Source: Hippopus hippopus (Eukaryota; Mollusca; Bivalvia; Cardiida; Cardiidae). From it: DNA of 64,000 nucleotides. The translations under genes were made by a program, and so were the position numbers. How positions within the stretch are numbered: position 1 is the first letter of the stretch; every line of letters begins with the position of its first letter. Below are positions 20,966-63,056 of this stretch, in pieces. The notes below the pieces were generated by a model that was not told the DNA's origin, ran no database searches, and saw only the letters and a list, made by a program, of their open reading frames with translations. Location of the stretch: assembly GCA_946811185.2 (NCBI GenBank), contig OX328098.1, forward strand, positions 21,957,084-22,021,083, in the 5' to 3' direction.

Positions 20966-21196
20966 TTAACTCTTTATTCAAACAACCCCGAGTTTTAATG
21001 ACCCTGAAAGGGATGGCTTTTGAAAACCATGTTGGAAAAGGAGAAAATGCTGGTAACCAGCATTTTCTCCTTTTCCAACATGGTTTTCTACCATGTCAAA
21101 GACAGAAATCATCATTCTAACTGCATGTATTTTATAGTCTGCAAATGTTTTTCAATTTGGTCTGGTCCAAACTTTTGTCGTTTGGTAAAGGGTTAA
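20966..21196 (+). mobile_element. P67 copy with co-varying palindrome arms
   Basis: TTAACTCTTTATTCAAACAAC to GTTTGGTAAAGGGTTAA. Both arms carry the same non-consensus sequence, GAAAACCATGTTGGAAAAGG on the left and its exact complement on the right, in place of GAAAACATTGTGGGAAAAGG. The 67-bp class palindrome therefore remains perfect despite an insertion and a substitution. Confidence 0.92.
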
Positions 21197-21337
21197 TTCT
21201 TTATCAAACAACAAAATTTTACATTTCTGTATCAAAATTGAGAGCATTGGTACATAATGAATTAACTCTTTATCAAACAACAAAATTTTAGACATGTGCG
21301 CAGTAATTATGCTGACAGTACCTAAATTCACTCTTAA
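21193..21337 (-). repeat. Two stacked P67 end fragments
   Basis: TTAATTCTTTATCAAACAAC at 21193 and TTAACTCTTTATCAAACAAC at 21262 are two minus-type ends, each only about 70 bp long, in front of a complete copy. Confidence 0.75.
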
Positions 21338-21560
21338 CTCTTTACCAAACAACAAAATTAGAGACTGGTCCAAATTGAAAGCATTTGCAGATGACAATAA
21401 ATGTGACTGAAAAATTGAAATTTGGTTTGGGAAGGGTAGAAAACATTGTGGGAAAAGGAGAAAATGCTGGTTACCAGCATCTTATCCTTTTCCCACAATG
21501 TTTTCAAAAGGCTTTTTTCTCAGGGTCGTTAAAAGTCGGGATTGTGTGATAAAGAGTTAA
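21334..21560 (-). mobile_element. P67 copy, full length (227 bp)
   Basis: TTAACTCTTTACCAAACAAC to GTGTGATAAAGAGTTAA. The palindrome is near perfect (CAGCATCTTATCC in the right arm). Confidence 0.92.
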
Positions 21561-21755
21561 CCTAACGATAGAATTTGAGAGCGTTTGCAGAAGACAAATG
21601 TAGCTGCAATGATGGTAATTGTATGTAAAAGATTTGAAAACCTTGTGGAAAAAGGAGAGAATGCTGGTTGCCAGCAATTTATCCTTTTCCAACATGGTTT
21701 TCAAAACGTTATTTCCTCAGAGCCGCTAAAACCCTGGAATGTGTGGTTAAGAGTT
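21557..21755 (-). mobile_element. P67 copy, head-to-tail
   Basis: It starts at the TTAA of the previous copy, with CTGGTTGCCAGC at the centre and TGTGTGGTTAAGAGTTGAA at the end. Right arm CCAACATGG, left arm CCTTGTGG. Confidence 0.82.
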
Positions 21756-21919
21756 GAACTTAAATGTGACTCAAATGATGGGGTCCTATAACTGACAGAA
21801 AACAATTTGAAAAAGGAGAAAGTGCTGGTTACCAGCATTTTTCTCCTCTTCCCTCAATGTTTTCAAAAGGCAATCTCCTTATGGTTGTTTAAACTGTGGA
21901 TTATGTGGTAAAGGGTTAA
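21756..21919 (-). mobile_element. P67 copy, long-spacer end truncated
   Basis: AATGTGACTCAAATGATGG, a worn left arm, CTGGTTACCAGC and terminus ATGTGGTAAAGGGTTAA. Confidence 0.8.
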
Positions 21920-22070
21920 GATGCTCTTGCAAATGGTATAGATCAAGATGAGACTGGGAACATACAGTCTGATCTTAGTTTTACACAATGCACTACTGAG
22001 ATATGTACAGTGTTTAAATAGGTATATTTACAAAAAAAAAATATCATTAATTTAGCGTTCTAGGGGTAGA
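21916..22070. repeat. Family-2 MITE, worn
   Basis: It begins at the shared TTAA, with GGTATAGATCAAGATGAGAC and ACAGTCTGATCTTAG as core arms; the far end is unclear. Confidence 0.55.
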
Positions 22071-22726
22071 TTATTGTCATGTTCAAGGGCTGTATTGGGC
22101 TTTTGAAAATATTTTGGTGTAGCCAGGGAATGTCTCTTGCATTCCTGGAGTGATAGGGGAGAGCACAAAAGGGGGGGGGGCTGTCTCCCTTTTCGTAAGT
22201 AAGGTCCAGGGAGACCTTGGGGGTGAGAATTTCTGCATTTAAGACCTTTTAGAGGTGATACTAATGCATTTTGAGACTTATCAATTGATCCCTACTCACC
22301 AGATTAAAAAGGAAATACAAAGAAGGAAAAATTAACCAAGTGGTACATACAGCCAACTGAAAAAGTGATGAGGCTATGGCCGGACCAGCCAGACAGCCAA
22401 TGACAGTCTTGTTTTCAATATTTTCTTTTTGTCAGGTCTCTTGAGTTGAGTTTCTCCAAATTAGCAATAGATTCAGTTTGATAATCACTTGGGTTACTAC
22501 CTTTGTATATTGGAAAAGATGGAAAAATGATTGAGCTTTGTTATGCTACAATCACCTAAAGTATTTCAATACATTATAACGTCTATATTTTGATGTTTGG
22601 TAAAGGGACCAAAGAAAATTGTGTCCTGTCAAGGAAAAATACCTTGAGGAAGCTATTTCAACTGTAGATTTGCAATAACTTCGTTGATTCTTTTGATAAT
22701 GAAGTAAATGTGTAAAGCCAATTTGA
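22071..22726. other. Unassigned sequence
   Basis: It contains a G-rich run (AAAGGGGGGGGGGC near 22170) and no gene or named repeat. Confidence 0.45.
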
Positions 22727-22933
22727 CAAAATTTTGGGCATCTTCAAATTAAAAGCATTTGCAAAAGATGAATGAAATTCAGCTTAGATGATTGGATTTG
22801 TCTTCAAAAGGGTTGAGAAAACTTATGGGAAAAGGGGAGAGTGCTGGTTTCCTGCATTTTCTCCTGTTCCCACAATGTTTTCAAAAGCCTTCTTACCTGG
22901 GGACAATTTGAAACACAGGATTACGGTTTAAGG
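22727..22933 (-). mobile_element. P67 copy, one TIR lost
   Basis: AAAAGCATTTGCAAAAGATG, core AGTGCTGGTTTCCTGCATT and ending GGATTACGGTTTAA. Confidence 0.72.
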
Positions 22934-23335
22934 CAAAGGATTATTGAAGGAAGAAGGTATGAGGCATCCCCCTCATGTACTCTGCCAGCTGTCACATCAA
23001 GTCATGTGATTTACCCAAACACAACCAATACACAAATAAATGTCAAGCCAGAAATAAGCCCTTTTTCATATTTTTGCATGATTTATTGCCATGGCAACCA
23101 TGTATTGTAAATTTTTGTTTGCCTCTTTTTTTTTTTAATCACTTGCCTGTGTGTTAGTGTTTTTATAGGGATACTCGATGCTTGTCAATATCTGACTGAT
23201 GATTTTTGTCCCTTTTCTATAATACGGGCTCTATTTTTGACCCTTGGCCATGATGGACGGTAGTGTTCTACCAAGGAAGGGACACTGTTACATGGAGAAG
23301 ATGCACCCGAGTCCATTCCATACAATCAGCCTGAA

Positions 23336-23556
23336 TTAAACCCTTTACCAAACAATCCTGCGTTTTAATGACCCTGAGAAAGAAGCCTTTTGAAAACATT
23401 GTGGAAAAAGAAGAAAATGCTGGATTACCAGCATTTTCTTCTTTTCCCACAATGTTTACTGACCTTTCCCAGACAAATCAAATCATTTGAACTGCATTAG
23501 ATTTGTCATCTGCAAATTGTGATTAGTCTAAAATTTTGTTGTCTGGTAAAGCGTTA
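23336..23556 (+). mobile_element. P67 copy, arms share AAGAAG/CTTCTT
   Basis: TTAAACCCTTTACCAAACAATC to GTCTGGTAAAGCGTTAG. The consensus AAGGAG is AAGAAG in the left arm and CTTCTT in the right, a matched change. One extra base lies at the centre (CTGGATTACCAG). Confidence 0.9.
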
Positions 23557-23656
23557 GAACTTTTTGGGACATTGACCCACTGAATAAGTAAAATGTCCCA
23601 TCATTGTGCTCACAGGTGAGACTTGATCACTTTCTCATTCATTTGAAAATTAATCT

Positions 23657-23877
23657 TGAGTTTAACACTGTACCACACAATTCCAAGTTTCAAATCCCAG
23701 AGTGAGAAAGCTTTTAAAAAGAATTGTGGGAAAAGGAGGAAACAGTGCTCCAAATCAGCATTTTCTCCTTTTCCAGCTATGATTTCTTCTCTTTTACAGC
23801 CAAGTCTTATAATTTGGGCAGTAAAATTTCATCTGCAAATGCTTCCAATCAGAGAACAATTATTTTTATCATTTTAA
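23657..23877 (+). mobile_element. P67 copy, worn core
   Basis: TTAACACTGTACCACACAATTC at the left; core AACAGTGCTCCAAATCAGC; right spacer TCATCTGCAAATGCTTCC. Confidence 0.78.
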
Positions 23878-24086
23878 CCCTTTCGGAGCCATAGACGAAA
23901 ATGGTGACTTTTGCAAACGGCATAGATCAAGATCAGACATGCACAGAATGTGCAGTCTGATCTTTGATCTATACCGTCGCTTGTATAGTCTAGCCTATAC
24001 AATCAAAATCTTTGTAAGTTTCAATGGATTGTATATAGAGCCGTTAGAAGAGGTCGAGTTTATTTATTTGGTGCTGAAAGAGTTAA
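23874..24086. mobile_element. Family-2 TTAA MITE (213 bp)
   Basis: TTAACCCTTTCGGAGCC to GTGCTGAAAGAGTTAA. Core arms AGATCAAGATCAGACATGCAC and GTGCAGTCTGATCTTTG with GGCATAGATC/GATCTATACC extension. Confidence 0.8.
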
Positions 24087-24087
24087 A

Positions 24088-24194
24088 GACAAGTCTCATC
24101 ATTTGAACTACATGTACATTTAATTTGTATGCAAATGCTTTCATTGCACATGGTCCAGTCTAGAATTTATTTTCTGGAAAAGATTAAATTAAGG
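24088..24194 (+). repeat. P67 right arm only
   Basis: GACAAGTCTCATCATTTGAAC, GTATGCAAATGCTTTC and CTGGAAAAGATTAA. Confidence 0.65.
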
Positions 24195-24305
24195 ATGAAT
24201 ATATATGAAATCATAGTACCAAAAGGAGTTCTAAATTCCTCATTATGAGCCATCACTTTGATTCCCACGATGCTTTCAAAGATCTCTACTGCTATGGGCA
24301 AAAAA

Positions 24306-24513
24306 TTAACCCTTTACCACACAATCCTAAGTTTTAGCTACCCAAAGGAAAATGACGTTTGAAAGCATTGTGAGTAAAGGAAAAAATGAACCAACATTTT
24401 CTTCTTTTTCCACAATTTTTCTACTCTTTCCAAGACAGATTTCATGATTTGTTCGTCTGCAAATGCTTTCAGTTTGGACGACTCTAAAATTTTGTGTTCG
24501 ATAAAGAGGTAAG
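24306..24513 (+). mobile_element. P67 copy, short core
   Basis: TTAACCCTTTACCACACAATC to GTTCGATAAAGAGGTAA. About 15 bp around the centre are missing (AAAATGAACCAACATTTTC). Confidence 0.85.
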
Positions 24514-24741
24514 TCTTTACCAAATAACAAAAATTTTGAGTTGTCCAAATAGAAAGCATGTGCAGATGACAATTTAAGTGTGGCTGGAATTATGCTTTTT
24601 GGCTATGAAAGAGTAAAAAACGTTGTTAGAAAAAGAGAAGATGCTGCTTTTCAACAATTTCTCCTTTTCCCCCACAAAGTTTTCAAAAGCTTTATATATC
24701 AGTGTCGATAAAACATGGATTTTGTGGAAAATGATTAATGA
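24510..24741 (-). mobile_element. P67 copy, worn
   Basis: GTAAGTCTTTACCAAATAAC to TGTGGAAAATGATTAA. The core reads GATGCTGCTTTTCAACAATTTC. Confidence 0.8.
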
Positions 24742-24888
24742 GATTAGCCATGCTGGTTGGTCAAGTGGATATCCAGTTTCTCTCTTAGCTGTTTCCTCTC
24801 AATTTGTTTAAGTTACAACTTACTCATTTTACACTGATTGTGAAACACAATCTTACAACTAAGATCAATTACTTTTGATGATTGCTGA

Positions 24889-25200
24889 GCCACAGTTACA
24901 CAGTTGGTAGGGCACAGGACGTGAGAACAGGGGTTACGTGGTTCAAATCCCCAGCTTGGCCGATTACTTTCCAAGGATTGATGATAGTCATTGCAACGGG
25001 ATTCATTCCTCTCTCTACATTGGATGGTTATGTAGGAAAGCAGCCAGTGGCTTTGGAAGAATATTGGGCAAAGTACTGGTACAGAAACCTCAGGAAAGTA
25101 TGGATAGGTGCACTGGAATGATGGAATAAACTGAAATAATGTTGAGAACAGCGTTAAATACTAATCAATCAATCAATCAATCAGTCAGTCAATCAAACCT
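24889..25200 (+). mobile_element. SINE B, full length, worn
   Basis: tRNA-like head ACACAGTTGGTAGGGCACAGG with B box GTGGTTCAAATCCCC, body AAGGATTGATGATAGTCATT, GGAAAGCAGCCAGTGGC, AGGAAAGTATGGATAGGTGC, and a (CAAT)n tail. Confidence 0.82.
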
Positions 25201-25433
25201 AGCCAGTTTCTGGGCTTGGGTTTAACTGGCTCAATTGGGATTCAAACCAAAAATCTTTTATGTGAGTGGCAGACTCTTCAACCCTACACTACTGTCTCCC
25301 CAGTTCTCTCAAAACTTTTTGTTTTGTTGGCTACAAAGATCTTTTTTTCACCATGTTCTGGATTTATAATCAGGAAATTTTGGTTAAATCCCTCCTCGAG
25401 GTTCTAGTCACATGGAGTAGCCAGGCTAGACAC

Positions 25434-25632
25434 TAAACCATGTACCAAAAGATTGTGTTTTCATGACCAGGGGAATGAAAGCTTTTCAAAACCTTGTGGG
25501 GAAAGAAGAAAATGCTGGTGACCAGCATTTTCTTCTTTTCCTACAAGGTTTTGTGTCCTCAAAGCTCATCAATTAGAGTTGTATCTGGTTTTTTGTTTCC
25601 ACCAATTTTAAATTTGGTGTGAAGTTGAGTCT
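25434..25632 (+). mobile_element. P67 copy with co-varying arms, right end lost
   Basis: ACCATGTACCAAAAGATTG at the left. Both arms read CCTTG/CAAGG instead of CATTG/CAATG and AAGAAG/CTTCTT instead of AAGGAG/CTCCTT. The centre is GGTGACC. Confidence 0.83.
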
Positions 25633-25642
25633 TGAGTCTTTT

Positions 25643-27022
25643 TAGCTCACCTGAGCACAAAGTGCTCATGGTGAGTTTTTGTGATCGTGCTGTGTCCGGT
25701 GTCCGTTGTGCGTCGTGTGCTGTCTGGCGTCAACTTTTATTTTGTGTATGCTCTAGAGGCCACATTTTCAGTCCGATACTCATGAAACTTGTTCAGAATG
25801 TTTGCCTTGATGATATCTTGGATGAGTTCGAAATTGGGTCATGTCAGGTGTAAAACTAGGTCATTAGGTCAAATCTTAGAAAAATCCTGTGTACACTCTA
25901 GAGGCCACATTTTCAGTCTGATACTCATGAAACTTTGTCAGAATGTTTGGCTTGATGATATCTCAGACGAGTTTGAAAATGGGTCATGTGGGGTCAAAAA
26001 CTAGGTTACTAGGTCAAATCTTAGAAAAACCTTGTGTATGCTGTAGAGGCCACATTTTCAGTCCAATGCTCTTGAAAGTTGGTCAGAAGGTTTGCCTAGA
26101 TGAAATCTTGGACGAGTTTGAAAATGGGTCATGTCAGGTCAAAAAGTCGGTCACCAGGGCAAATCTTAGAAAACCTTGTGTATACTCTAGAGGCCACATT
26201 TTCAGTCCAATACTCTTTAAAGTTGGTCAGAATGTTTGTTTAGATGATGTCTCAGTTGAGTTTGAAAATGGGTCATATGGGGTCAAAAACTAGGTCACAA
26301 GGTCAAATCTTAGAAAAACATTGTGTACCCTCTAGAGGCCACATTTCCAATCAAGTACTCATGAAAGTTTGTCAGAATGCTTGGTTTGATGTTATCTCAG
26401 ACGATGTGGAAAATGGGCCAGGTCGGGTCAAAAACTAGGTCACTGGGACCAATCTTTGAAAAATCTTGTGTACGCTCTAGAGGCCACATTTTCAGTCCAG
26501 TACTCATGAAACTTGGTCAGAGTGGTTTTCTTGATAACATTTTGGATGAGTTAGAAAATGGGTCACATCAGGTCAATAACTAGGTCACTGGGTCATATCT
26601 TTGAAAAACCTTGTGTATGCTCTAGAAGCAACATTTTCAGTTCAGTACTCATGAAACTTGGTCAGAATCCTTGAGGACATCTTACACGAGTTTAAAAATG
26701 GGTCAGGTAGGGTCATAAAAATGGGTCAGGTAGGGTCAAAAACTAGGTCACATAGTCAAATTTTTGAATAACCTTGTGTATGCTCTAGAGGCCACAATTT
26801 TAGTTCAATACTCATGGAACTTGGTCAAAATGTTTGTCTTGATGACATCTTGGACGAGTCTAGAAAAAGCTTGTGTACAAGCTAGAGGCCAAATTTTCAG
26901 TCCAATAATTATGAAAGCTTATTAGAATGTTTGTCATGGTATCTTGGAAGAGATTTAAAATGGATCATGTTTGGTCGAAAGACTCAGGTGAGCGACTTCA
27001 GGGCCATCATGGCCCTCTTGTT
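25643..27022 (+). mobile_element. Tandem-repeat element (Helentron-like), copy 3, intact
   Basis: It opens TAGCTCACCTGAGCACAAAG, with about eight 145-bp units (one with a 25-bp local duplication near 26695-26740). The end is CTCAGGTGAGCGACTTCAGG, then hairpin GGGCCATCATGGCCC and TCTTGTT. This is the cleanest copy for defining both ends. Confidence 0.9.
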
Positions 27023-27403
27023 GAACGTAAAGAGTTATTTTAAAAGTCTGAATATACATGTAGCTAACACCCTTTAACAAAAGATGTCTTGTTTCCAAGA
27101 GGTTAGGAATGAAGGCATCTGAAAATGTTTTGAAAAAAGGATTACTTTATGACCACAAATTAAAATTACATAGAATTCAAAATGTGGGTCTGGGAAAATG
27201 AAAAAAAAAAACAAAAACACTTTGACTTTTTCTTCAAATCTGTAAAAACATGGGATAGTTTAGGAGAGGGTTACCAAAAGGTTTTTTTTGGTCCCAGTGA
27301 AAATGCACAACATATTCAACATTCTAAGGCTGAACTCTCTTCCAGTCCTGCTTTTCCTGAAAGTATTGACAACAAAAATTTTAATTATATGTGGTAATAT
27401 GTT

Positions 27404-27543
27404 CAGGTGTGTCTTCGATGGATTCAAAGCATTAGGGGAAAACAGGAAAAAATGATGCTGGTAACCACCATTTTCCCCACAATGTTCTCTTAAGCTTTTC
27501 TTCAGGGTTGTTTTATCACAGAATTAGTTGCTAATGGTTATCC
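27404..27543 (-). repeat. P67 copy, worn
   Basis: GATGCTGGTAACCACCATTTTC with right flank TTCAGGGTTGTTTTATC; both TIRs eroded. Confidence 0.55.
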
Positions 27544-27599
27544 CTCAAAGTAGAAGTAAATTTTTAGTCCGAAAAAAATAAACAGGCTATATATGGCAG

Positions 27600-27754
27600 A
27601 GTTGGTTCAAGCATAGTGTACAGTGCAGATGTAAGTACACCTCCAAGATTAGACTGCAAAGACCTCTGCTGTCTCTTGCACAGGCCTACGCTGTCTCTTG
27701 ATCTTTATTCTGGGCAAAAGCAGTAAAATTTATGCACAGCTCTATAAGGGTTAA
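27600..27754. repeat. Family-2 MITE, worn, with local duplication
   Basis: AAGATTAGACTGCAAAGACC and TCTTGATCTTTATTCTGGGC flank a duplicated GCTGTCTCTTG; ends at the TTAA used by the next P67. Confidence 0.5.
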
Positions 27755-27978
27755 CTCTTTACCAAACAACAAAGTTTCAGACTGGTCCAAACTGAAAGCA
27801 TTAGCAGATGACAAATTAAGGGTGGCTCAAGTGATGAATTTGTCCTTGATCAGGTAGAAAACATTGTGGGAAAAGGAGAAAATGCTGGTAACCAGCATTT
27901 TCTCCTTTTCCCATAATGTTTGTAAAAGCCTTTTTCCTCAGGGTCGGTAAAAGTCAGAATTTTGTTGTAAAGGGTTAA
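27751..27978 (-). mobile_element. P67 copy, full length (228 bp), flipped centre
   Basis: TTAACTCTTTACCAAACAAC to TGTTGTAAAGGGTTAA. The body is minus but the centre is GGTAACC. Arms canonical except CCCATAATG on the right. Confidence 0.92.
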
Positions 27979-28079
27979 TTCAAAACACAACACCCTGTGG
28001 TTGATTTAGACTTAATTGGTGGAAATTTTTAGACCAGTATTTTCAGGGATGATAATCCATATTTCTTTCTATGCCAAAG

Positions 28080-28175
28080 GTGACTGTAATACCTTGTGCA
28101 GATAGCTTAGACCAAGATCAGACTGGACAGAAGGTACAGTTGCCATCTGATCTTTGATGTACACCATCTTCAACT
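28080..28175. repeat. Family-2 hairpin, worn
   Basis: AGACCAAGATCAGACTGGAC and CCATCTGATCTTTGATG pair across a short loop; CACCATC follows. Confidence 0.5.
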
Positions 28176-28269
28176 TGATTCTATACTATTCATTTGCAAT
28201 GCAAGTGTAACGCAGCCAGTATTTGGTCTCTGAAAAGAGAGCAATGGGTATATTTATCATTGAGAAGGT

Positions 28270-28510
28270 GAATTAGATGTAACCAACATCCACTCTCTCC
28301 AAAGTTAAAAATTGGCTGAGGCAGAATCAGTGGAAAACTAACAAGCTAAGCTCATTGTCACTGGTTATAGTGTTGGATCTGTGATTTGGAAATCATGGCT
28401 TGAATTCCCCATTGATAGCACTGGTCATGTTGGAGTGTCCAGGTGGGCCAGGCATTGCAGAGATCAGCCTAGTGTTGTTAAAGCCGATGAAATGCATGAA
28501 TAAGAGAGCT
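28270..28510 (+). repeat. Possible SINE-like remnant
   Basis: GGTTATAGTGTTGGATCTG and GGCTTGAATTCCCC might be worn A and B boxes, and TGTTAAAGCCGATGAAATGC resembles a SINE end. No second copy is in the window. Confidence 0.3.
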
Positions 28511-28667
28511 TTTACCTTGATATTTCTGAGATGGTGTTGAAATCAGCTTAAAACAATATTCAAATGAACTAAGAAAAAAATCTAGTGCTGGGATTCATTG
28601 TATGTTCATCAACAATGTGTTGCTATGCATCGAAAACATCTGTTTCCTAGTCTATTCAGAGAGCTGT

Positions 28668-28875
28668 TTAACCCTTAGAGCGCTGAATAAAACAGAAATG
28701 TTCATCCTAAAAATATGAGACTAATCATTCCAATTCATAGTTCCTTTTATCTACACTGTCTCAGCAAAGCAGACAGTGTAGATCAAAGATCAGGCTGCAC
28801 ATTTTTTGCAGCCTGATCTTGATCTACGCAGGTTTCAAAGACAACTGTTGTTGTGGAAGGCAATTTAAGGGTTAA
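28668..28875. mobile_element. Family-2 TTAA MITE (208 bp)
   Basis: TTAACCCTTAGAGCGCTG to GGCAATTTAAGGGTTAA. Core arms GATCAAAGATCAGGCTGCA and TGCAGCCTGATCTTGATC are longer and better paired than in other copies, with both carrying GGCTGC/GCAGCC where the family has GACTGC/GCAGTC: a matched change. Confidence 0.83.
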
Positions 28876-29253
28876 CAGTTAGTTTTCCAGGCACCTGCTA
28901 GAGAATGATTTTTCCTGTGTCCAGCTGCCAGGGGGAATGATTTGCTTTCTGTGATGTTTGACACATTCCCTGGAATTTCCCACCTTTTTTCTCTTACTGT
29001 CTGTTGCTAATGAAGATGTTTCTTTTCTTGTGAATTTATTGAAAAGAGAAGTAATTGCCTGTTAGAAAAAAGATGTATTGGTTTTTTTTTTTTCCAATTC
29101 CAAACAGTTTCAGTAATTTCTGATATTTCTTTAGAAACAAACTCAAATCTCGCCTTGAGCTGAAATACCTGTGCAGCATTAAATTTTGGCTTTGAAAACA
29201 GCATTGTTGCATATTGATGTTCAACAGAAATGCAGTAAACTATATAAATACAT

Positions 29254-29497
29254 TTAACTCTTTACCAAACAACAAAATTGTAGACTTGTTCAAATTGAAA
29301 GCATTTGCAGAAGGCAAAATACATGTGGCTCAAATACATGTGGCTCAAAAATTGAAATTTGTTTTGGGAAGGGTAGAAAACATTGTAGGAAAAGGAGAAA
29401 ATGCTGGTTACCAGCATTTTCTCCTTTTCCTACAAAGTTTTCCTAAGGCTTCTTTCTCAGGGTTGTTAAAAGTCGGGATTGTGTGGCAAAGAGTTAA
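29254..29497 (-). mobile_element. P67 copy (244 bp) with 16-bp tandem duplication
   Basis: TTAACTCTTTACCAAACAAC to GTGTGGCAAAGAGTTAA. ACATGTGGCTCAAATA is duplicated, explaining the length. Both palindrome arms have TAGG/CCTA for TGGG/CCCA, a matched change. Confidence 0.93.
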
Positions 29498-29530
29498 ATA
29501 TTCCTGATAGGTGGAGGGATACTTTGGCAT

Positions 29531-29532
<2 letters not shown>

Positions 29533-29563
<31 letters not shown>

Positions 29564-30009: not shown

Positions 30010-30019
30010 TTATAGAGCC

Positions 30020-30345: not shown

Positions 30346-30574
30346 ATAATCCTTTACCAAACAATCCCAAGATTTCACAATAATGAGAAAGGGACCTTTT
30401 GAAAACATTTTTGGAAAAGGAGAAAATGCTGGTAACCAGCATTTTCTCCTTTTCCAAAAATGTTTTATCCATATTCATAAGCAAATCCCTCCCATTTTAG
30501 CCACATTTAATTTGTCCTCTGCAATTGCTTTCAATTTAGATGTTTCTAAAAATTTTGCTGTATGGTGAAGAGTA
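30346..30574 (+). mobile_element. P67 copy (229 bp) with co-varying arms
   Basis: AATCCTTTACCAAACAATC to TATGGTGAAGAGTAA. Both arms carry ATTTTTGG/CCAAAAAT in place of ATTGTGGG/CCCACAAT, so the palindrome is perfect over 32 bp per arm despite two changes. Confidence 0.92.
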
Positions 30575-32490: not shown

Positions 32491-32722
32491 TGTAACCCTT
32501 CACTAAACAATCTCTGATTGAGATGACCTTTGGAAAGAATGCTTTTGAAAACATAGTGGGAAAAGAAGAAAATGCTGGAAACCAGCATTTTCTTCTTTTC
32601 CCACAATGTTTTTCTGCCCTTTTAGAGACAAATCATTTCAATGTAGCCAAATTTGATTTGTTGTCTGCAAGGGCTCCGATTTGGTCAAGTATGAAATTTT
32701 ATTGTGTTGTGAAGTGTCATTA
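32491..32722 (+). mobile_element. P67 copy, arms share AAGAAG/CTTCTT
   Basis: GTAACCCTTCACTAAACAATC to TGTTGTGAAGTGTCA. The centre is GGAAACC. The AAGAAG change is matched in both arms. Confidence 0.88.
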
Positions 32723-38696: not shown

Positions 38697-38928
38697 ACCC
38701 TTGCCAAATAATCTTTGAGTTTCAACAAACCTTTCAAAAGAAGGTACAGTATTTGACAACATTGTGGGAAAAGACAAAATGCTGGTAACCAGCATTTTGT
38801 CCTTATCTTACAATGTTTTCTACCCATTTAGAAACATACTCCATCATTGCAGACACATTTGATGTGTCGTCTGCAAATGCTTTGAAATTGGACAAGTCTC
38901 AAGTTCTGTTGTTTGGTGAAGAGTTGAA
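38697..38928 (+). mobile_element. P67 copy with co-varying core
   Basis: TAAACCCTTGCCAAATAATC to GTTTGGTGAAGAGTTGAA. The inner arm reads AAGACAAAATGCTGG and CCAGCATTTTGTCCTT, so GACAAAA/TTTTGTC is matched on both sides in place of GAGAAAA/TTTTCTC. Confidence 0.85.
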
Positions 38929-54238: not shown

Positions 54239-55541
54239 CAGGGCTCCCGCTGTCGATCGCCAGTGGCGCCAAATGCGAAAATTAAAAAAAAATGGCACCA
54301 AAAATGAAGCACTGGCGAATGTACTGGCGACAAGTAAATCTCTATAAACTATTCTTAAAAGATCTTAACTCTGACATAAACAGTATGTATCAGGTGTGAA
54401 GGAAGCCCGCATTACTGGTTGTCACACATAATCAAGCTGACATTCATTAAAGGTCTTGTCTAATTACACACCATACTTGCATACACACCACGCAATCAAA
54501 TATCGATTTTGCCACGCCCCGTTGAGCACACAGAATCTACTGCGAACCAATCAGAAATCAGATACAAGATTTAGTTACCGCCCATAATTTCTATAGCCAC
54601 GCCTTGATTATGCCTTACCTGGTCAGCAACCTCTCACTGGCTAGCATTTTATTGTGTGTATTTAACGATGTCGTTAATGAAAAACGTGATAATGGTATTG
54701 ATCTGCTTATCTTGCGTAAAAATGACAGATTTTGAAGTTAGTTGCTACCCGTAACGAAAATTTTATATCAAATAATGCGGAATTTTTTTTCTGAAAATTA
54801 ACTGACATGAAAAATGGATCATCGAAAAAACGTGAAAACACATGACACAACATGTCAGTTTGATGTTGTCCGATCAGAAGCACTTCAGACTGCCTTTATA
54901 GCCTTGATAGTGACTTCAAGCAATAAATTTACACAAATATATGTATAAAACTATAAGTAGGTGCTAAAATATCTGTCTAATAATGAGGAAAAAACCTGGG
55001 TGATTTTATGACACGAAAATGCTGAATGTTGGCAGGGGGGGTGTTGCACTTTGTAGGCCACTTTGTCTTACAGTGATAGATCTAGCACTGGAACAAGTGA
55101 CTATAGAGGACACTAATATAGAGAGAAAAAGACCAGAATAAAAGGCCCTTTTAACAAATAAAATCTTCAGTAATTTTTAGGATAAAAGAAATGATGTATT
55201 AACCCTTTACCACACAATCCCAAATTTCTTCCATAATTTCATTAAAACTTAAGTAATTCTAACAGGTTGGCAGTTATAGAATTACAGAGCTGTATTACTT
55301 TTCAAATACAAATTCTATTTCCCTGTAGCTCACAACCTTGAAAACCCTGGTTGGGGGGGAAGGAACATAAGTAAGCATGTACAGCACTACTGAGCAATGG
55401 ATTTAGTAGCTTTAACATTGGCCAATAAACTGAAGTGTCTAATGTACTATGTGGCTACTTTAGTTGGCTCCTACTGGCCCCAATTTTTATGAGGTGGCGA
55501 ATTTGATGGCGCAAGAATTAAAACTTGCAGGGGAAACCCTG
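54239..55541. mobile_element. hAT-type element, 1.3 kb, with 6-bp target duplication
   Basis: Terminal inverted repeats CAGGGCTCCCGCTG and CAGGGGAAACCCTG (complement CAGGGTTTCCCCTG), flanked by perfect direct repeats AGGAAG (54233-54238, 55542-55547). Subterminal GGCGCCAAATGCG and GGTGGCGAATTTG words pair. It contains a short P67 left-end fragment (TTAACCCTTTACCACACAATC, about 55199). No transposase motif is seen. Confidence 0.85.
55199..55256 (+). repeat. P67 left-end fragment nested inside the hAT element
   Basis: TTAACCCTTTACCACACAATC, then after a deletion CATTAAAACTTAAG. It gives a P67-in-hAT-in-P67 nesting. Confidence 0.7.
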
Positions 55542-55736
55542 AGGAAGTAAACTTTTTACAACATTGTTTGAATAGGAGAAAATGCCCATAAACCACATTT
55601 TCTCCTCCCACAATGTTGTCTGTCCTGTCAAAGACAAATTCTATCATAATATTATGCACCTCATTCAATTTGTCATTTACACACATCTGTACAAGTACTT
55701 TCAAATGCAGCATTTTTTTTCATTTTGTGAAGGGTT

Positions 55737-55940
55737 AATGCCTTTTACTACTATAGTTGCTTCTGTGGCTTCTGCCAGTGTAGATAAAGATCAGACTGCA
55801 TTAAAGTGTTGTCTGAACCTTGTTGTACAATGTCCCTTTGCTTTGACATTCTGCTATAAAGCAACCTTTAAATTGCTCACATTTAGGTGTAATTTTTTGT
55901 CAGAAAGTTTCAAGTTTAACTGGCTTGCTAAGGGTTACAG
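55737..55940. mobile_element. Family-2 MITE, worn
   Basis: TTAATGCCTTTTAC to GCTAAGGGTTAC; core AGTGTAGATAAAGATCAGAC with TGTTGTCTGAACC. Confidence 0.6.
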
Positions 55941-56535
55941 TTTCTATACTTTTTGTCCTTAAATTGAGATTGTTTCTTAATATCAGTAAAAGCAAGTTCA
56001 TGTATCAAGAGTTTAAGGGTAGAATTAATTTTTCATTTGTGGCAAATTGTCCCAATTCAGTGTTCACACTTTGTTGATTAAGCATAATGCCTCTTGTATG
56101 AATAAAACCCCTCAAAGAAAAAAAAACTTTGTAGAATAATTTTGGATTTGTGCATGATTGACACCTTACCTTTTGCACAATAATTTTTGCATTTTACATC
56201 CACTTTCTAAAACATTGTGACAAAATTGGAAGTTGTTTGTAGCATGCATTCTTTTTTCTATTATGCTTTTACAAGTGTTCATGAAACCTAATTGAAATTC
56301 TTTCAATGATATTATATTTTGAAAGAGAAGTTGTTAACTATGTCTACCTCAAATTATTGATAGGGTAGCTCTGGAAAAAGTGCAAGGCCAAAGGGAGCCA
56401 TAGATGTTTTTCCGGAGGGGGTGGGAGAAATAAAGTCAGTAGTTCTGTTTTTGAACTCCTGGCATGCTATAGGTTTTATAGACTTCTTCCTGGGAAGTTT
56501 ATATCATGATCACTTGGATCAATTGTTAGTTGCAT
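55941..56535. other. Unassigned sequence
   Basis: AG|GGTAGCTCTGGAAAAAG at 56363 was examined as a possible exon and not accepted. Nothing else is recognised. Confidence 0.4.
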
Positions 56536-56715
56536 TTATGGTGTTCATTGCTGTTTTCAACATTATTTCAGTTGTATGGCAGCTGGCAAGTGCATGTATC
56601 TATGCTTGCTTGGCGTTTCATTTTACCATTACTATGCGCAATATTCTACCCAAGCCAGCAGGTGCTTTCCAACATACCATTCTTGAAATGGTCAACAGTG
56701 AGAGCAATGAAAGCT
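56536..56715 (-). repeat. SINE B, reverse orientation, 5' part lost
   Basis: On the minus strand it shows GGAAAGCACCTGCTGGCTTGG, TAATGGTAAAATGAAACGCC and CAAGCATAGATACATGC, followed by the ATACAACTGAAATAATGTTG tail. Confidence 0.7.
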
Positions 56716-56810
56716 GTCTCAATGACAGTCTTTAACCTTTTGAAAGAAATTGGTCAAGTTGGGGATTTTAATGTGCAACACCCTGGTATAAACTCCTGCA
56801 TGTTACCTGC

Positions 56811-57017
56811 ATGTTTGGACTTGTTTAGAGTGAAAACATTTTGCCTAAGACAGTAAATGTGACTAAAAAACTGAAACATATCTATCGACAAGAAGAAATC
56901 ATTGTTGGAAATGGAAAAAAAATGCCGATTATCAGCATTTTCTCCTTTTCCCACAATGTATTCAAAAGGCTTTCTCCTCAGGGTCATTAAAACTCGGGAT
57001 TGTGTTGTGAAGGGTTA
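56811..57017 (-). mobile_element. P67 copy, one TIR lost
   Basis: TTTGGACTTGTTTAGAGTG, core GCCGATTATCAGC, end GTGTTGTGAAGGGTTAA. Confidence 0.8.
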
Positions 57018-57361
57018 AAAGACATCCAGAACATTTCTGCTGTTCTATTGAATAATTCAGAGAAACAAATTATTTAATTTCTTTGGCCTAGTTTTCAATA
57101 AAAAAAAAAATTGAGGATTTACTTGATTTGCCATAATAGAGGGGGGACTATTTCCGACTGATTAACCCTCAAAGCAAACACCTGGCTTTTGGAAAACAAA
57201 GAGAAGATACCCCTTAGTGCATTTTGTTATTAACATTTTTCTCTACAAAATTCTGTTTGAAATACATATTTATATTTTCAAAATACTGAAATACAATATG
57301 GGAAAAGTAATATTTTGAACGTTTGACTCAGAGGGTTGAAGTTGTTTTGTGCAGTAAGATG
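57018..57361. other. Unassigned sequence
   Basis: AT-rich; TAACCCTCAAAGC at 57172 and CTCAGAGGGTTGAA at 57328 may be ends of a worn TTAA element. Confidence 0.35.
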
Positions 57362-57464
57362 CCATTTAACACAAGTAAATCTTTTGAGAATGTTGTAAGA
57401 ACATGAGAAAAATGCTGGTAACCAGCTTTTTTGTCCTTTGCCAACAATGTTTCTACCCCTTTTA
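57362..57464 (+). repeat. P67 core, both ends lost
   Basis: TCTTTTGAGAATGTTG and GCTGGTAACCAGC with a shortened right arm. Confidence 0.65.
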
Positions 57465-57687
57465 ACTCTTTATCAAACGACAAAATTATAGACTGGTCTA
57501 AACTGAAAGCATTTGCAGACGACAAAATAAATGTGACTGAAAAATTGAAATTTGGTTTGAGAAGGGTAGAAAACATTGGGAAAAGGAGAAAATGCTGGTT
57601 ACCAGCATTTTCTCCTTTTCCCACAATGTTTCAAAAGGCTTCTTTCTCAGGGTTGTTAAAAGTCGGGATTGTGTGGTAAAGGGTTAA
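57462..57687 (-). mobile_element. P67 copy, full length (226 bp)
   Basis: TTAACTCTTTATCAAACGAC to GTGTGGTAAAGGGTTAA. The left arm lacks 3 bp (ACATTGGGAAAAGG). Confidence 0.93.
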
Positions 57688-57783
57688 AGATAAATCCCGT
57701 TTTTTGAGCTGCATTTGTCATCTGCAAAATTTAATGCTTTCAATTTGGACTAGCGTAAAATTTTGTTGTCTGGTTGAAAAATT
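57684..57783 (+). repeat. P67 right arm sharing TTAA
   Basis: TTTTGAGCTGCATTTGTC, TGCTTTCAATTTGGACTAGC, GTTGTCTGGTTGAAAAATTAA. Confidence 0.7.
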
Positions 57784-57789
57784 AATGCA

Positions 57790-58009
57790 GCTGGTTGACT
57801 TATCACACAATCCAGAGATTAAACAACCCTTTAGAAGAAAGCTTTTGAAAACATTGTGGGAAATGGTTTAACCAGTATTTCTCCTTTTCACACCATGTTT
57901 TCTTACCGTCTCAAGACAAATCATATCATTTGAGCAACATTTAATTTGTCGTCTTGAAATGCTTTCATTTAGGACCAGTCTAGAATTTTGTTGCATTGTA
58001 AGGGGTTAA
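57790..58009 (+). mobile_element. P67 copy, core shortened
   Basis: GACTTATCACACAATCCAG; ATTGTGGGAAATGGTTTAACC; right spacer ATTTGAGCAACATTTAATTTG; end TTGTAAGGGGTTAA. Confidence 0.83.
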
Positions 58010-58096
58010 CTCTACCAAACAACAGAATTTTGAGTCTTGTCCAAATTGAAAACATTTCCAGATGACAAAATAAATTGGCTTAGAGATTGAATTGCA

Positions 58097-58382
58097 GAGC
58101 TACAGTAGCTCAGTCGGTAGGGTACAGGACTTGAGAACAGGGGGTCGTGGGTTCGATCCCTGGCTCGGCCAATTTCTTTCAAAGGATTGATGATAGTCAA
58201 TTCGACAGGATTCATTCCTCTCCCACCGCTGACCTTTGTCTCAACGATGGTTATGTGGGAAAGCAGCCAGTGGCTTGGAAAGAAAACTGCGGAGCACTGG
58301 TAAAAGAAACTCCAGGAAAGCATGGATTGGTGCACTGGCCGCCTTGATATAACCGAAATGATGTTGAAAACGGTGTTCATCA
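58097..58382 (+). mobile_element. SINE B, reference copy
   Basis: tRNA-derived head with A box TAGCTCAGTCGGTAGGG and B box GGGTTCGATCCC. The body AGGATTGATGATAGTC, TATGTGGGAAAGCAGCCAG, GAGCACTGGTAAAAGAAACTC, GCATGGATTGGTGCACTGG, then TGATATAACCGAAATGATG. Its 3' half is similar to SINE A in the segment from GGCTTGGAAAG to TGATATRACC. It is followed directly by a (CAT)n tail. Confidence 0.92.
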
Positions 58383-58391
58383 TCATCATCA

Positions 58392-58467
<76 letters not shown>
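58379..58467. repeat. (CAT)n-(CAA)n microsatellite, SINE tail expansion
   Basis: CAT repeats change into CAA repeats directly at the SINE B 3' end. Confidence 0.95.
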
Positions 58468-58578
58468 GAATTTTGTTTTTGGAAAGGTAGAAAACAGTGT
58501 GGGAAAGGCGAAAGGCTAGTAATCAGGATTTTCTCCTTTTCCAACAATGCTCTTAAAAGGCTTCTTTCTGAGGGTTGT

Positions 58579-58806
58579 TTAACCCTTTTCCAAACAACAA
58601 TATTTTATACAAGTCCAAATTAAAAACTTTTGCAGGGGACAAAATAAATATAGCTGAAAATTGAAATTTGATTTGGGAAGGATTGAAAACATTGTGGGAA
58701 AAGGAGAAAATGCTGGTTACCAGCATTTTCTCCTTTTCCCATAATGTTTTCAAAAGGCCTCTTTTTCAGGGTCGTTAAAAGTCGGGATTGTGTGGTAAAG
58801 AGTTAA
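58579..58806 (-). mobile_element. P67 copy, full length (228 bp)
   Basis: TTAACCCTTTTCCAAACAAC to GTGTGGTAAAGAGTTAA; right arm CCCATAATG. A 30-bp P67 end (AGGATTGTGTGATAAAGAG) follows it to 58833. Confidence 0.93.
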
Positions 58807-58842
58807 ACTCAGGATTGTGTGATAAAGAGTTAATGCATCTGG

Positions 58843-59043
58843 TTAACTCTTTACCGCACAATCCTGAGTTTTAATGACACTAAAGAAGGAGACTTTTAGA
58901 GGCATTTTCTTCTTTTCCCACATTGTTTTCTGCCTTTTCACTAACAAGTTTGAATACTTGAGTCAGATTTATTTTGTTGTCTGTCTGCATAATTATGCTT
59001 TCAGTGTGGACGTCTAAAATTATGTGGCTTTGTAAAGAATTAA
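58843..59043 (+). mobile_element. P67 copy, left palindrome arm deleted
   Basis: TTAACTCTTTACCGCACAATC to GGCTTTGTAAAGAATTAA. GACTTTTAGAGGCATTTTC joins the left spacer to the right arm. GTCTGTCTGCATAATTATGC has a small insertion. Confidence 0.86.
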
Positions 59044-59148
59044 GAACATAAGTGTATCTGAAAAAAACTCAAAAATGGAAGTTGCTTTAACTTAGCAACT
59101 GCAGAATTATTTTTGGAAAAAAATGATTATGTAAGTGTCTGTAAAATT

Positions 59149-59341
59149 TACTCTTTACCACACAATCCTGAGTTTTAACAACCCTGAGAAAGAAGCCATC
59201 GCTGGTAACCAGCATTTTCTCCTTTTCCAACAGTGTTTCTACCCTTGCCAAAACATATTTCAGTTTTTGAGTCACATTTGTCGTCTGCAAAGGCTTTAAA
59301 TTTGGACAAGTCTAAAATTTTATTGTGTGGTAAAGAGTTAA
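59149..59341 (+). mobile_element. P67 copy, left palindrome arm deleted
   Basis: TTTACTCTTTACCACACAATC to GTGTGGTAAAGAGTTAA. AAAGAAGCCATCGCTGGTAACC shows the join, independent of the 58843 deletion. Confidence 0.88.
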
Positions 59342-59566
59342 CCCTTTACCAAACAATCCCTGGTTTTTACGACCCAGAGAAGGAAGTCTTCTGAAAACAT
59401 TGTGGAAAAAGGAGAAAATGCTGGTAACCAGCATTTTCTCCTTTTCCCACAATGTTTTCTACTCTTCTACAGTCAAGTTTCAATTTTTGAGTCACGTTTA
59501 TTTTGTTGTCTGCATATGCTTGCAATTTGGACAAGTCTAAAAGTTTGTCGTTTGGTAAAGAGTTAA
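59338..59566 (+). mobile_element. P67 copy, full length (229 bp), shared TTAA
   Basis: TTAACCCTTTACCAAACAATC to GTTTGGTAAAGAGTTAA; left arm ATTGTGGAAAAAGG. Confidence 0.94.
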
Positions 59567-59689
59567 AGCTTAAAGTATTAATCCCTGACTGTGGAACTTT
59601 TTTATGGTGAAAGGATCGAAAACAATTCAATGTACTTTTATGGCATGACTTGGCAGAATTCGATTTGTCTTTGTTTAACAAAATACAAT

Positions 59690-59900
59690 AAAATCCCGAC
59701 TTTTAATTACTCTGGCGAGGTATGCTTTTGAAAACATTGTGGGAATAGAGGAAAATGCTGGTAACCAACATTTTCTCCTTTTCCCAGTGTCTTCTACCCT
59801 ATCAAAGACTGATGTCATCTTTTGCACCACAATTAGTTTCTTGTCGGCAAATGCTTTTGATTTGGTAGAGTCCTAAGTTTTATCATTTGGTAGAGTTAAC
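59690..59900 (+). mobile_element. P67 copy, left TIR lost
   Basis: AATCCCGACTTTTAATTAC, ATTGTGGGAATAGAGG, GGTAACCAACATTTTC, end ATTTGGTAGAGTTAA. Confidence 0.83.
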
Positions 59901-60083
59901 TAGTAAAATCATTCTTCCTTCGACAGATTGGGGGGGGAGGGGGGTATTTTAGAGTTTGAAAGGGTAGAAAACTTTGTGGAGAAATTAATTGGAAAATCGA
60001 ATGTAGAGAACAAGATTATTAACTCATACATATTGAAAGCATTTGCATCTGACTATTAGCGTTTGGTCAAATTATGTGATTTT

Positions 60084-60706
60084 TAGCTCCACTGGCCGAA
60101 GGCCAGCGAGCTATTGTCATGGCGTTGTGTCCGTCGTGCGTGCGTGCGTCCGTCCGTTCGTTCGTCCGTTCGTCCGTGCTTGCGTCTGTAAACTTAACTT
60201 AAAAAACTTCTCCTCAGAAACTATTGACTGGATTTTTACCAAATTTCACAGGAATGTTCCTTTGGTGGTCCTCTTTCAAATTCCTTCAAATAATTGTGTT
60301 CCATGAAGAATTCTGGTTGCCATGGCAACCAAAGTAAAAAACCTTTAAAAATCTTCTCCTCCCAAACCGCTATTTGGATAGCATTATTATTTTGCAGGAA
60401 TGTTCCTTAGATACAGGTTTATAGATTTCCTTAAAAAAAAAAAGATCTGTCAAAAAACATGGCTTTTATGGGAGACTCATTTTCCTTTTATGGTATAAAG
60501 TAAAATCTTTGAAAAATTTCTTCTCTAAAACTATTCATTGGATTTCATTGTTGTTTTGCAGGTAAGTTCCTATGGTGGTTGTCTACCAAATTGTTTCTTC
60601 AGTGAGCTAAAATGCAGGATTGAATGATAATTGTTAAAAACTTCCTTTCGCCATTATAGAAATATCAGGCCTGTGGAGCGATACAGGCGCTCAAGCGCCT
60701 CTAGTT
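60084..60706 (+). mobile_element. Second-family tandem-repeat-type element, no array, different end hairpin
   Basis: TAGCTCCACTGGCCGAAGGCC start, a GTCC/GTTC-rich leader (60130-60187), GTTGCCATGGCAACC, and an end GGCCTGTGGAGCGATACAGG. The terminal hairpin here is GGCGCTCAAGCGCC followed by TCTAGTT. The stem sequence differs completely from GGGCCATCATGGCCC but pairs equally well. Confidence 0.82.
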
Positions 60707-60868
60707 CTTTCAAAGGGCAGAAGACAGAGTTGGAAAAGGAGTAAATGCTGGTAACATATAATAATCACTCTCTTGTTTTCTCCTTTTGTGAGTATTTTTT
60801 CAAAAGTTTTCCTTCCAAAGATGGTGAAAACATTGGACAGCTTTGGTAAAAAGTTTCAGCCTTTTAAA
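60707..60868 (-). repeat. P67 copy, worn, next to the preceding element
   Basis: CTTTCAAAGGGCAGAAGACAG, ATGCTGGTAACATATAATAA, end CTTTGGTAAAAAGTTTCA. Confidence 0.6.
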
Positions 60869-60874
60869 CCTAGA

Positions 60875-61026
60875 AAATCTCACAAAATACCAGACAGGGA
60901 AGATTACAGATCTAACTTATTATTATGTGCTGTCTGATCTTGACCTACACTGGTCACTAAAGCAACACAAATTGTGAAAAGCACCTCAGGGATTAGTGAC
61001 TGTTTTCACCAAATGATAAAGTTTAA
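60875..61026. repeat. Family-2 MITE, worn
   Basis: Only the arm GTGCTGTCTGATCTTGACC and CTACACTGGTC are clear. Confidence 0.45.
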
Positions 61027-61251
61027 CCCTTTACCAAACAATCCCGGGTTTTAACGACCCTTGGAAAGAAGTCTTTTGAAAACATTGTGGGAAAAGGAGA
61101 AAATGCTGGTAACCAGCATTTTCTCCTTTTCCCACAATGTTTTCTACTCTGCCATGGACAAATTCTACCATTTGAGCCACCTTTAATTTGTCGTCTGCAA
61201 ATGCTTTCAATTTGGACCAGTCTAAAATTTTGTTGTTTGGTAAAGAGTTAA
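61023..61251 (+). mobile_element. P67 MITE, reference full-length copy (229 bp)
   Basis: This is the best copy to define the family. It begins TTAACCCTTTACCAAACAA and ends GTTTGGTAAAGAGTTAA, giving a near-perfect TIR of about 19 bp including TTAA at both ends. Positions 61078-61144 form a perfect 67-bp palindrome: arms of 33 bp starting GAAAACATTGTGGGAAAAGG, meeting at a single unpaired A (61111) inside CTGGTAACCAG. The spacers are unequal, about 29 bp between TIR and palindrome on the left and about 85 bp on the right (containing TTTGAGCCAC and GTCTGCAAATGCTTTCAATT), so orientation can be read. No open reading frame of transposase type fits in 229 bp, so it is non-autonomous. TTAA flanks and CCC-type termini point to piggyBac-like mobilisation (inference). 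Confidence 0.93.
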
Positions 61252-61478
61252 CTGTTTGCCACAAAATCCCAAGTTTTAACCACTCTGAGAAATAAGACTT
61301 TTGAAACAATGTAGGAAAAGGAGAAAATGCTGGTAATTATCATTTCTCCTTTGACCAAAAAGTTTTTTCTAACATACCAAATGATAATTTTCATCATTTG
61401 AGCCACATTTATAATTGCTGTCTGAAAAAGCTTTGAATTTGGACAAGTCCACATTATTGTTGTATGGTAAAGAGTTAA
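61248..61478 (+). mobile_element. P67 copy, head-to-tail with the reference copy
   Basis: TTAACTGTTTGCCACAAAATC to GTATGGTAAAGAGTTAA; core worn (CTGGTAATTATC), so older than its neighbour. Confidence 0.88.
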
Positions 61479-61657
61479 GGTGTTTGATGACAGTGAAATA
61501 AAGGCCAATCAGATGATTGGATATGTCTTTGAAAGGGTAGAAAAAATTGTGGGAAAAGGAAATAATGCTAGTTACCATTATTTTCTCATTTACCAACAAT
61601 GTTTTCAAAAGCGATCTTCCTCAAGTTAAAAATTCAAGATTATGTGGTAAAGAGTTA
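61475..61657 (-). mobile_element. P67 copy, long spacer shortened
   Basis: TTAAGGTGTTTGATGACAG; GCTAGTTACCATTATTTTC; end ATGTGGTAAAGAGTTA. Confidence 0.8.
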
Positions 61658-61842
61658 CTTGACCAAATTGAAAGCTTCTGCAGACCACAAATCAAATGAA
61701 ACCCAAAAGATTATTTTTATCTTTGAAATAGTTGGAAACATTGTTGAAAAAGGAGAAAATGTTGGTTACTAGCATTTTCTCCTTTTTCCACAATGTTTCC
61801 ATTTCTTCTGTAGGGTTGTAAAACATGGGATCGTCTGTTCAT
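61654..61842 (-). mobile_element. P67 copy, far end lost
   Basis: ACCAAATTGAAAGCTTCTGC, ATGTTGGTTACTAGC, GGTTGTAAAACATGGG. Fourth member of the chain starting at 61023. Confidence 0.8.
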
Positions 61843-62002
61843 TCATTAATTACAGTGATTTAGAAATTGGGAAAGTGTAGGTGGTGTGCATTTCAGATAT
61901 CTGTTTCCTGATCTGGATAAAATGTGCAAGATTTTGAGAGAGATACAGACTTGCAGTAGATTTTCTCTGCCTGCCTTGCTCCCTCCCCTGCAAATGTATG
62001 TT

Positions 62003-62076
62003 TGTCTGTCACAATGTTTTCAAAAGCCTTCTTCCTCAGGGTTGTAAAACACCAGATTGGTTGGTGAAGGTTCAAC
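62003..62076 (-). repeat. P67 end fragment
   Basis: CACAATGTTTTCAAAAGCC through TTGGTTGGTGAAGGTTCAA. Confidence 0.7.
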
Positions 62077-62250
62077 TCTTTACTAACAATATAGTGGGGC
62101 TAAAATGATTGAATTTGTCTGTGAAAGGATAGAAAAAATTGTGGGAAGAGGAGAAAATGCTGGTTACTGGCATTTTCTCCTTTTTCCACTGTGATTGCAA
62201 GCCTTCTTTTTCAGGGTTGTAAAATATGGGATCATTTGGTAAAGGGTTAA
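62072..62250 (-). mobile_element. P67 copy, long spacer deleted
   Basis: CAACTCTTTACTAACAATA joins GGGGCTAAAATGATTG; core CTGGTTACTGGC; end ATTTGGTAAAGGGTTAA. Confidence 0.84.
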
Positions 62251-62478
62251 CTCATTACCCCACAATCCCATGTTTTAGTGACCCTGAAGAGGAGTCTTTT
62301 GAAACATTGTGGGATAAGGAGAAAATGCTGGGAACACGCATTTTCTTCTTTTCCAAAATGCTTTCTATCATTTCAAAGACTGAAATCTTCATTTGGACCA
62401 CATTTGATTTGTAGTCTGCAAAATTTATGATTTCTAGTTAGTGGAGTCCAAAATTGTGTCTTTTGGTAAAACAGTTAA
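62247..62478 (+). mobile_element. P67 copy, full length, shared TTAA
   Basis: TTAACTCATTACCCCACAATC to TTTTGGTAAAACAGTTAA; core CTGGGAACACGC. Confidence 0.88.
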
Positions 62479-62833
62479 TACAAGGTGCTATGAACAAAGT
62501 TTTGATTGTATAAATTTTGTTGTGGTCAAATGACAGAACTGATGTTGATATGGTGTTAAACTTCTTTTTTCTCTTTCATACCATGAAAGAGCCTATTTAT
62601 TTGGGTTTGGAGACTAGTGCAGTGGCAGTGAAAATTTCCTGTTCATTGTAGAGAGACTGGTTACTCTAATTGACCTATCAAAACCAGACCTGTGGGTTAT
62701 TGATTGTAAAAGCGGTCCACATTGTTTACAATGGCAGTAGGAAATGTAGGAAAACATAAAAAATCTGCTTCTCATGTTGTATGAAATGTCAAAGCATGGC
62801 TGTGGGAGAGCAATAACCATTGCCTGCCTCTAC
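62479..62833. other. Unassigned sequence
   Basis: No gene or repeat recognised. Confidence 0.4.
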
Positions 62834-63056
62834 ATTTTACCGTATAATAAAATTTCACACTTGTCTATATTAAAAGCATTTGCAGACAACAATTAAATTG
62901 TGGCTCAAATTATCAGATTTTTCTTTAGAAGGGTAGAAATCTTGTGGGAAAAGGAGGAAATGCTGGTTACTAGCATTTCCTCCTTTTCCTGCAATGTTTT
63001 CAAAAGCCTTCGTTCTCAGGATCATAAAAACATGGAAGTGTTTGGTAAAGGGTCAA
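62834..63056 (-). mobile_element. P67 copy with co-varying arms
   Basis: CATTTTACCGTATAATAAAA to GTTTGGTAAAGGGTCAA. The inner arms read GGAGGAAATGC and GCATTTCCTCC, the same change (GGAGAAAATGC in the family) on both sides. Confidence 0.88.

Follow-up and report, generated by a model that had tools for sequence, protein, structure and literature searches.

The P67 element in the window

The window analyzed here is a 64,000-nucleotide stretch of the Hippopus hippopus genome (assembly GCA_946811185.2, 1.07 Gb in 34 contigs; contig OX328098.1, positions 21,957,084 to 22,021,083), 31.5% of which consists of copies of a single palindrome-bearing repeat, the P67 element. P67 itself is a 67-bp palindrome, with two 33-bp arms around one central base (33-1-33), and occupies columns 56-122 of a 229-bp element consensus, the centre base being column 89. 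The consensus starts TTAACCCTTTACCA and ends TGGTAAAGAGTTAA, with TTAA at both termini and terminal inverted repeats in which 16 of the 20 outer positions are complementary. From these sequence features the element can be classed as TTAA-flanked and MITE-like (resembling miniature inverted-repeat transposable elements); kinship with piggyBac, judged from the ends, would be a guess.

The element is also abundant elsewhere, covering 12.6% (35,143 of 280,000 bases) of 28 stretches sampled at round coordinates. These contain 147 scorable palindromes, one of which was dropped afterwards, and extrapolation from them puts the copy number at roughly half a million per genome. Two pairs of copies have flanks that differ by only ~1% (window 6772 with L020:1485, and window 37297 with L024:4259), which suggests recent movement or duplication.

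A preliminary description of the window had pointed to changes shared by both arms in eight P67 copies and in one copy of a second palindrome family, family 2. All eight carry at least one matched change, that is, a departure from the consensus present in both arms so that they stay complementary, and the family-2 copy has near-perfect arms with one matched change relative to its family consensus. The eight are a selected tail of the 81 scorable window copies. They are listed below together with the family-2 copy and a reference P67 element; earlier start positions, where they differ, are given in parentheses.

20966 to 21196, + strand: P67 element; palindrome 21022-21088, 3 matched pairs and 0 single-arm changes
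23339 to 23556 (earlier 23336), + strand: P67 element; palindrome 23392-23457, 1 matched and 2 single-arm changes
25432 to 25660 (earlier 25434), + strand: P67 element with decayed ends, the 3' end aligning poorly; palindrome 25487-25553, 3 matched and 2 single-arm changes
28668 to 28873, no strand assigned: family-2 element; inverted arms within 28744-28820, 1 matched change
29254 to 29497, - strand: P67 element; palindrome 29376-29442, 1 matched and 1 single-arm change
30347 to 30573 (earlier 30346), + strand: P67 element with TTAA altered at both ends; palindrome 30401-30466, 2 matched and 1 single-arm change
32493 to 32717 (earlier 32491), + strand: P67 element; palindrome 32547-32612, 1 matched and 2 single-arm changes
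38700 to 38927 (earlier 38697), + strand: P67 element; palindrome 38755-38820, 1 matched and 4 single-arm changes
61023 to 61251, + strand: reference P67 element, its ends intact; palindrome 61078-61144, perfect and of consensus sequence
62829 to 63056 (earlier 62834), - strand: P67 element; palindrome near 62942-63001, 1 matched and 4 single-arm changes

Matched changes exceed chance

To score arm changes we used a sample of 243 P67 copies, 81 in the window and 162 outside it. The 309 candidates were reduced to 244 by dropping those with fewer than 60 aligned arm bases, a low score or unclear orientation, and a double-counted palindrome (L001:4351) was then removed. Some analyses were run on an earlier set of 186 or 210 copies and are marked n = 186 or n = 210. 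As a null, right arms were shuffled among copies of similar flank divergence, which keeps both column-specific rates and flank age.

Across the 243 copies there are 102 matched changes, about 1.6-fold the 62.9 ± 7.4 seen in shuffles, none of 1000 of which reached 102, and 1425 changes confined to one arm. Double changes that are not complementary number 85, against 72.4 ± 7.4 in shuffles (53 of 1000 reach 85); since these are not clearly above the null, it is mainly the complementary changes that are in excess. The window copies have 39 matched, 434 single-arm and 23 non-complementary double changes, with 19.7 ± 4.2 matched in shuffles (0 of 1000 reach 39). The copies outside the window, which played no part in the preliminary description, have 63, 991 and 62, respectively, with 42.3 ± 5.8 matched in shuffles (1 of 1000 reaches 63). 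An excess is present in every quarter of flank age (9 matched vs. 3.0 shuffled, 19 vs. 11.0, 39 vs. 21.8, and 35 vs. 24.0). The earlier suggestion that arms are paired beyond what independent mutation would give thus holds in this sample.

Coincidence, mutation hot spots or assembly error could be invoked for the matched pairs, and about half of them are indeed at chance level (62.9 by shuffling or 45.2 by simulation, of 102). As a full account this is hardly credible, as the shuffles retain both flank age and the rates of individual columns, the excess recurs outside the window, and a control is flat: the terminal inverted repeats of the element, which are inverted but far apart, have 51 matched changes vs. 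49.8 ± 6.3 in shuffles. Together with the predominance of single-arm changes, the chance share does mean that any arm correction is occasional. Five copies have two or more matched changes and no more single-arm than matched changes; shuffles average 0.76 such copies, with a maximum of 5 in 500 (n = 210).

The base changes themselves offer another indication. The mix of changes in matched pairs fits the single-change spectrum better than its square, by a modest log-likelihood difference of 2.9 in copies with at most five single-arm changes and 2.3 in those with at most two. This is expected if one mutation was copied rather than two having arisen.

Position, diversity and flank linkage of matched changes

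The excess lies in the outer part of the arms. The outer 20 arm pairs have 78 matched changes vs. 42.6 ± 5.8 in shuffles, while the inner 13 have 24 vs. 20.2 ± 3.8, no clear excess. No extension of the palindrome past its arms was found (n = 210).

Matched changes are also diverse. There are 46 distinct variants, compared with 32.2 ± 3.5 in shuffles, and 26 of them were found once, so that descent of all paired variants from a few master copies, which the preliminary description had allowed for, is not what the sample contains. The excess persists without the nine commonest variants (52 vs. 37.2 ± 5.6; 7 of 1000 shuffles reach 52). Flank variants are shared by carriers of the same variant to no greater extent than by age-matched copies (9.0 vs. 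8.39 ± 0.62, a value reached in 81 of 500), although two of the 13 variants with at least three carriers lean toward sharing (15 and 21 of 500). The nearest flank relatives of copies with matched changes are distant, at 0.11-0.38 (n = 210), and hence no sibling is usable for comparison.

These observations bear on the possibility that matched changes were made in source elements, either by correction there or through selection for a working palindrome during mobilization, and were then inherited by copies whose arms stayed static after insertion. This origin is the main alternative, and we regard it as doubtful for P67. The general lack of shared flanks among variant carriers speaks against it, as does a matched-change spectrum unlike that of two independent hits. 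On the other side, clean-armed copies without matched changes have 47 outer and only 14 inner single-arm changes, which constraint in the sources would explain; in decayed copies, with 663 outer and 421 inner, the inner 13 pairs are not spared.

Ectopic gene conversion, in which an old copy has its palindrome replaced by that of another copy bearing a matched variant, would likewise spread variants without flank linkage, and would yield clean palindromes in old flanks. It is nonetheless very unlikely: clean donors are most often of consensus sequence, and conversion from these would remove changes, whereas private combinations of changes exist that it would not create (three matched changes at 20966, four at L014:6184).

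Timing of the matched changes

Single-arm changes are scarcer in copies with matched changes than expected from the flank age of these copies. An inherited model with diverged sources gives the same deficit, however, so it does not decide between the two origins. A reading of matched changes as young and inherited, obtained by grouping copies by single-arm count (n = 186), was rejected, as that grouping conditions on the outcome; grouping by flank age gave a different picture.

The loss of CpG and the state of the TTAA provide two clocks. Among clean copies (at most two single-arm changes), those with matched changes keep 9 of 44 CpG and those without keep 98 of 175. This is not decisive, because a diverged source would look alike. 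TTAA is the cleaner clock, as every insertion should begin with an intact one. Clean-armed copies that lack matched changes retain 345 of 361 TTAA bases and have 16 altered, compared with 82 of 440 altered in copies with 6-8 single-arm changes and 111 of 521 in those with at least nine. Decay thus climbs with single-arm count, indicating that the P67 TTAA acts as a target site renewed at insertion.

By this measure clean-armed copies with matched changes look like old insertions: 14 of 88 of their TTAA bases are changed, a count that includes some badly aligned 3' ends. With recognizable ends only, the difference is weaker and still holds (10 of 72 vs. 14 of 348). In the 234 of 243 copies retained for this analysis (nine without a recognizable end were dropped), matched changes predict TTAA decay beyond single-arm count (p = 0.003). 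Shuffling within single-arm count gives p = 0.028 over the full set and, for copies with at most five single-arm changes, 0.0038 (0.024 outside the window and 0.011 within it). The target-site clock therefore favors correction after insertion, on moderate evidence, and the decay of the TTAA in matched-change copies for their single-arm count is a third point against an origin in the sources.

Models of arm correction

We simulated several processes, scaling the rate of copying events per palindrome to the substitution rate of a single site. With independent mutation alone, 45.2 ± 7.3 matched changes result, far from the observed 102. When the outer 20 positions are copied at rate 2, the simulations yield 96.7 ± 14.4 (distance 6.4, score -14.3). 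Correction of single sites fits more poorly than tract copying, and copying of whole arms predicts too many inner matched changes.

We think it probable that, from time to time, one outer arm of an inserted palindrome serves in place as the template from which the other is rewritten. Most plausibly, the mechanism would be quasi-palindrome template switching. A growing strand would pass the centre of the palindrome and pair back on itself through the inner stem (fold-back), the inner 13 pairs presumably forming the priming stem. The folded strand could then use the outer part of the first arm as template, leaving the other outer arm matched. Each event would be one copying step, made in place and not in the source, at perhaps ~2 events per palindrome per one substitution at one site, or ~0.2 events per average copy. 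Such a fold-back switch would predict a footprint confined to the outer part of the arms.

A broader form of this reading is put forward tentatively, as quite possible: replication fold-back, with the inner 13 bp spared as a priming stem, would correct around half a million dead palindromes in place, one arm at a time, and these would constitute a built-in, selection-free germ-line recorder of template switching, whose rate per palindrome would be about double that of substitution per site.

At the centre base, 35 of 237 copies have T in place of A, compared with at most 17 changed copies for any arm column, though some flank columns are equally variable. The frequency of this change climbs with flank age, from 5% to 20%. 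This is what an inter-strand switch could give, and is only a hint.

Several results weigh against correction in place. Most arm changes are unpaired (1425 single-arm vs. 102 matched). A tract of the outer 26 positions fits about as well as the outer 20 (distance 6.2), and a tract with a mean of 10 positions nearly so; tract length is consequently not pinned down. A model of inheritance, with pairs put in the outer 20 positions and source flanks diverged too, gives 92.6 ± 9.4 matched changes with a distance of 6.5 and a slightly better score (-13.0). Once source flanks are allowed to diverge, an origin in the sources therefore fits the arm and flank summaries as well as copying does, and these data cannot part the two models; the target-site clock does (p ~ 0.003). 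That clock has its own weak points: in the cleanest class, copies with any TTAA change number 5 of 11 with matched changes vs. 11 of 46 without (p = 0.26), and in copies with at least six single-arm changes matched changes and TTAA decay are not associated (p = 0.55). Template switching should also copy insertions and deletions (indels), yet none of 101 insertions is mirrored, and no matched deletion was seen save one across the centre of a single copy (both n = 210). Few mirrored indels would be expected if the correction share is a few per cent.

Family 2 adds a further difficulty. We found it at 82 places and scored 75 copies, including the one at 28668. These have 41 matched changes vs. 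20.1 ± 4.0 when shuffled by flank bins, or 29.7 ± 4.7 when shuffled by arm-change bins (18 of 1000 reach 41). Its most frequent matched pairs co-occur repeatedly within individual copies, so that they look like inherited subfamilies, as expected for an origin in the sources. Inheritance seems to dominate here, and no clear loop inversion was found in family 2. P67 and family 2 need not have one common cause.

The readings proposed in the preliminary description are accordingly supported in part. Mutual correction of the arms is favored by the target-site clock, but most changes are unpaired and the inherited model fits equally. Diversification of source elements appears to apply to family 2, but in P67 it is at odds with the 46 variants and the absence of overall flank sharing.

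Relation to known systems

Large chromosomal palindromes undergo arm-to-arm gene conversion by homologous recombination, with arms of kilobases. P67 would resemble them in that its arms would homogenize each other; arms of 33 bp would be very short for homologous recombination. A fold-back model of quasi-palindrome mutation is attributed to Ripley in 1982, as cited in PMC7954356.

In yeast, imperfect inverted repeats are described as being converted to perfect ones by template switching at quasi-palindromes (PMC3820800). P67 is like this system and the fold-back model in that one arm would serve as template for the other. It differs in that the yeast events were selected at one reporter, whereas for P67 the process is a statistical inference over scattered copies, with no mirrored indels.

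In RNA hairpins, according to one report, a hairpin-primed switch corrects the stem and keeps the loop (PMC8794818), so that multi-base compensatory changes could come from one hairpin-primed copying step, as we propose for P67. The RNA stems are under selection as RNA, and the authors of that report call the evidence for stem maintenance circumstantial. Most P67 copies look like dead DNA, and selection on each copy would be unlikely.

Great-ape comparisons are reported to contain 4017 significant short-range template switches (PMC7954356), a local switch leaving an inverted-repeat footprint in an animal germ line, as would be the case for P67. Unlike our work, that study is described as a comparison between species, and its method classes many conversions from near-perfect to perfect repeats as non-significant. 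The piggyBac and piggyBat elements, as presented in PMC11707139, share with P67 the TTAA chemistry and the presence of palindromes inside the element. In those elements the palindromes are short (19 bp in piggyBac), lie near the ends and bind the transposase, whereas the P67 palindrome is 67 bp and internal.

Titles and abstract openings yielded no account of arm-to-arm correction inside a MITE palindrome, and no paper was found that joins quasi-palindromes, template switching and a transposable element, in a literature search that was thin on subscription journals. The process is thus known in kind; its setting in scattered element copies and its outer-stem footprint appear to be new.

Template switching, rather than selection, may be what keeps DNA and RNA stems paired, and matched changes in a hairpin need not imply selection on RNA. 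If the reading of P67 as corrected in place is true, the scattered copies document a kind of mutation that is difficult to observe by other means, and a palindrome this abundant, with a target-site clock built in, would make rate, tract and geometry measurable in one genome.

Other observations

In one P67 element (L001:4318-4450, on C1 near 5.004 Mb), two segments resembling a right arm come after the left arm, and both bear the same change, matched to the left arm. This is possibly a captured product of copying or of duplication.

The window contains two further repeats. An inverted repeat at 63597-63793 has arms of 53-77 nt with 90-92% complementarity, and a different dispersed or tandem repeat lies at 25640-26000, with two units seen that start near CTCTAGAGGCCACATTTTCAG.

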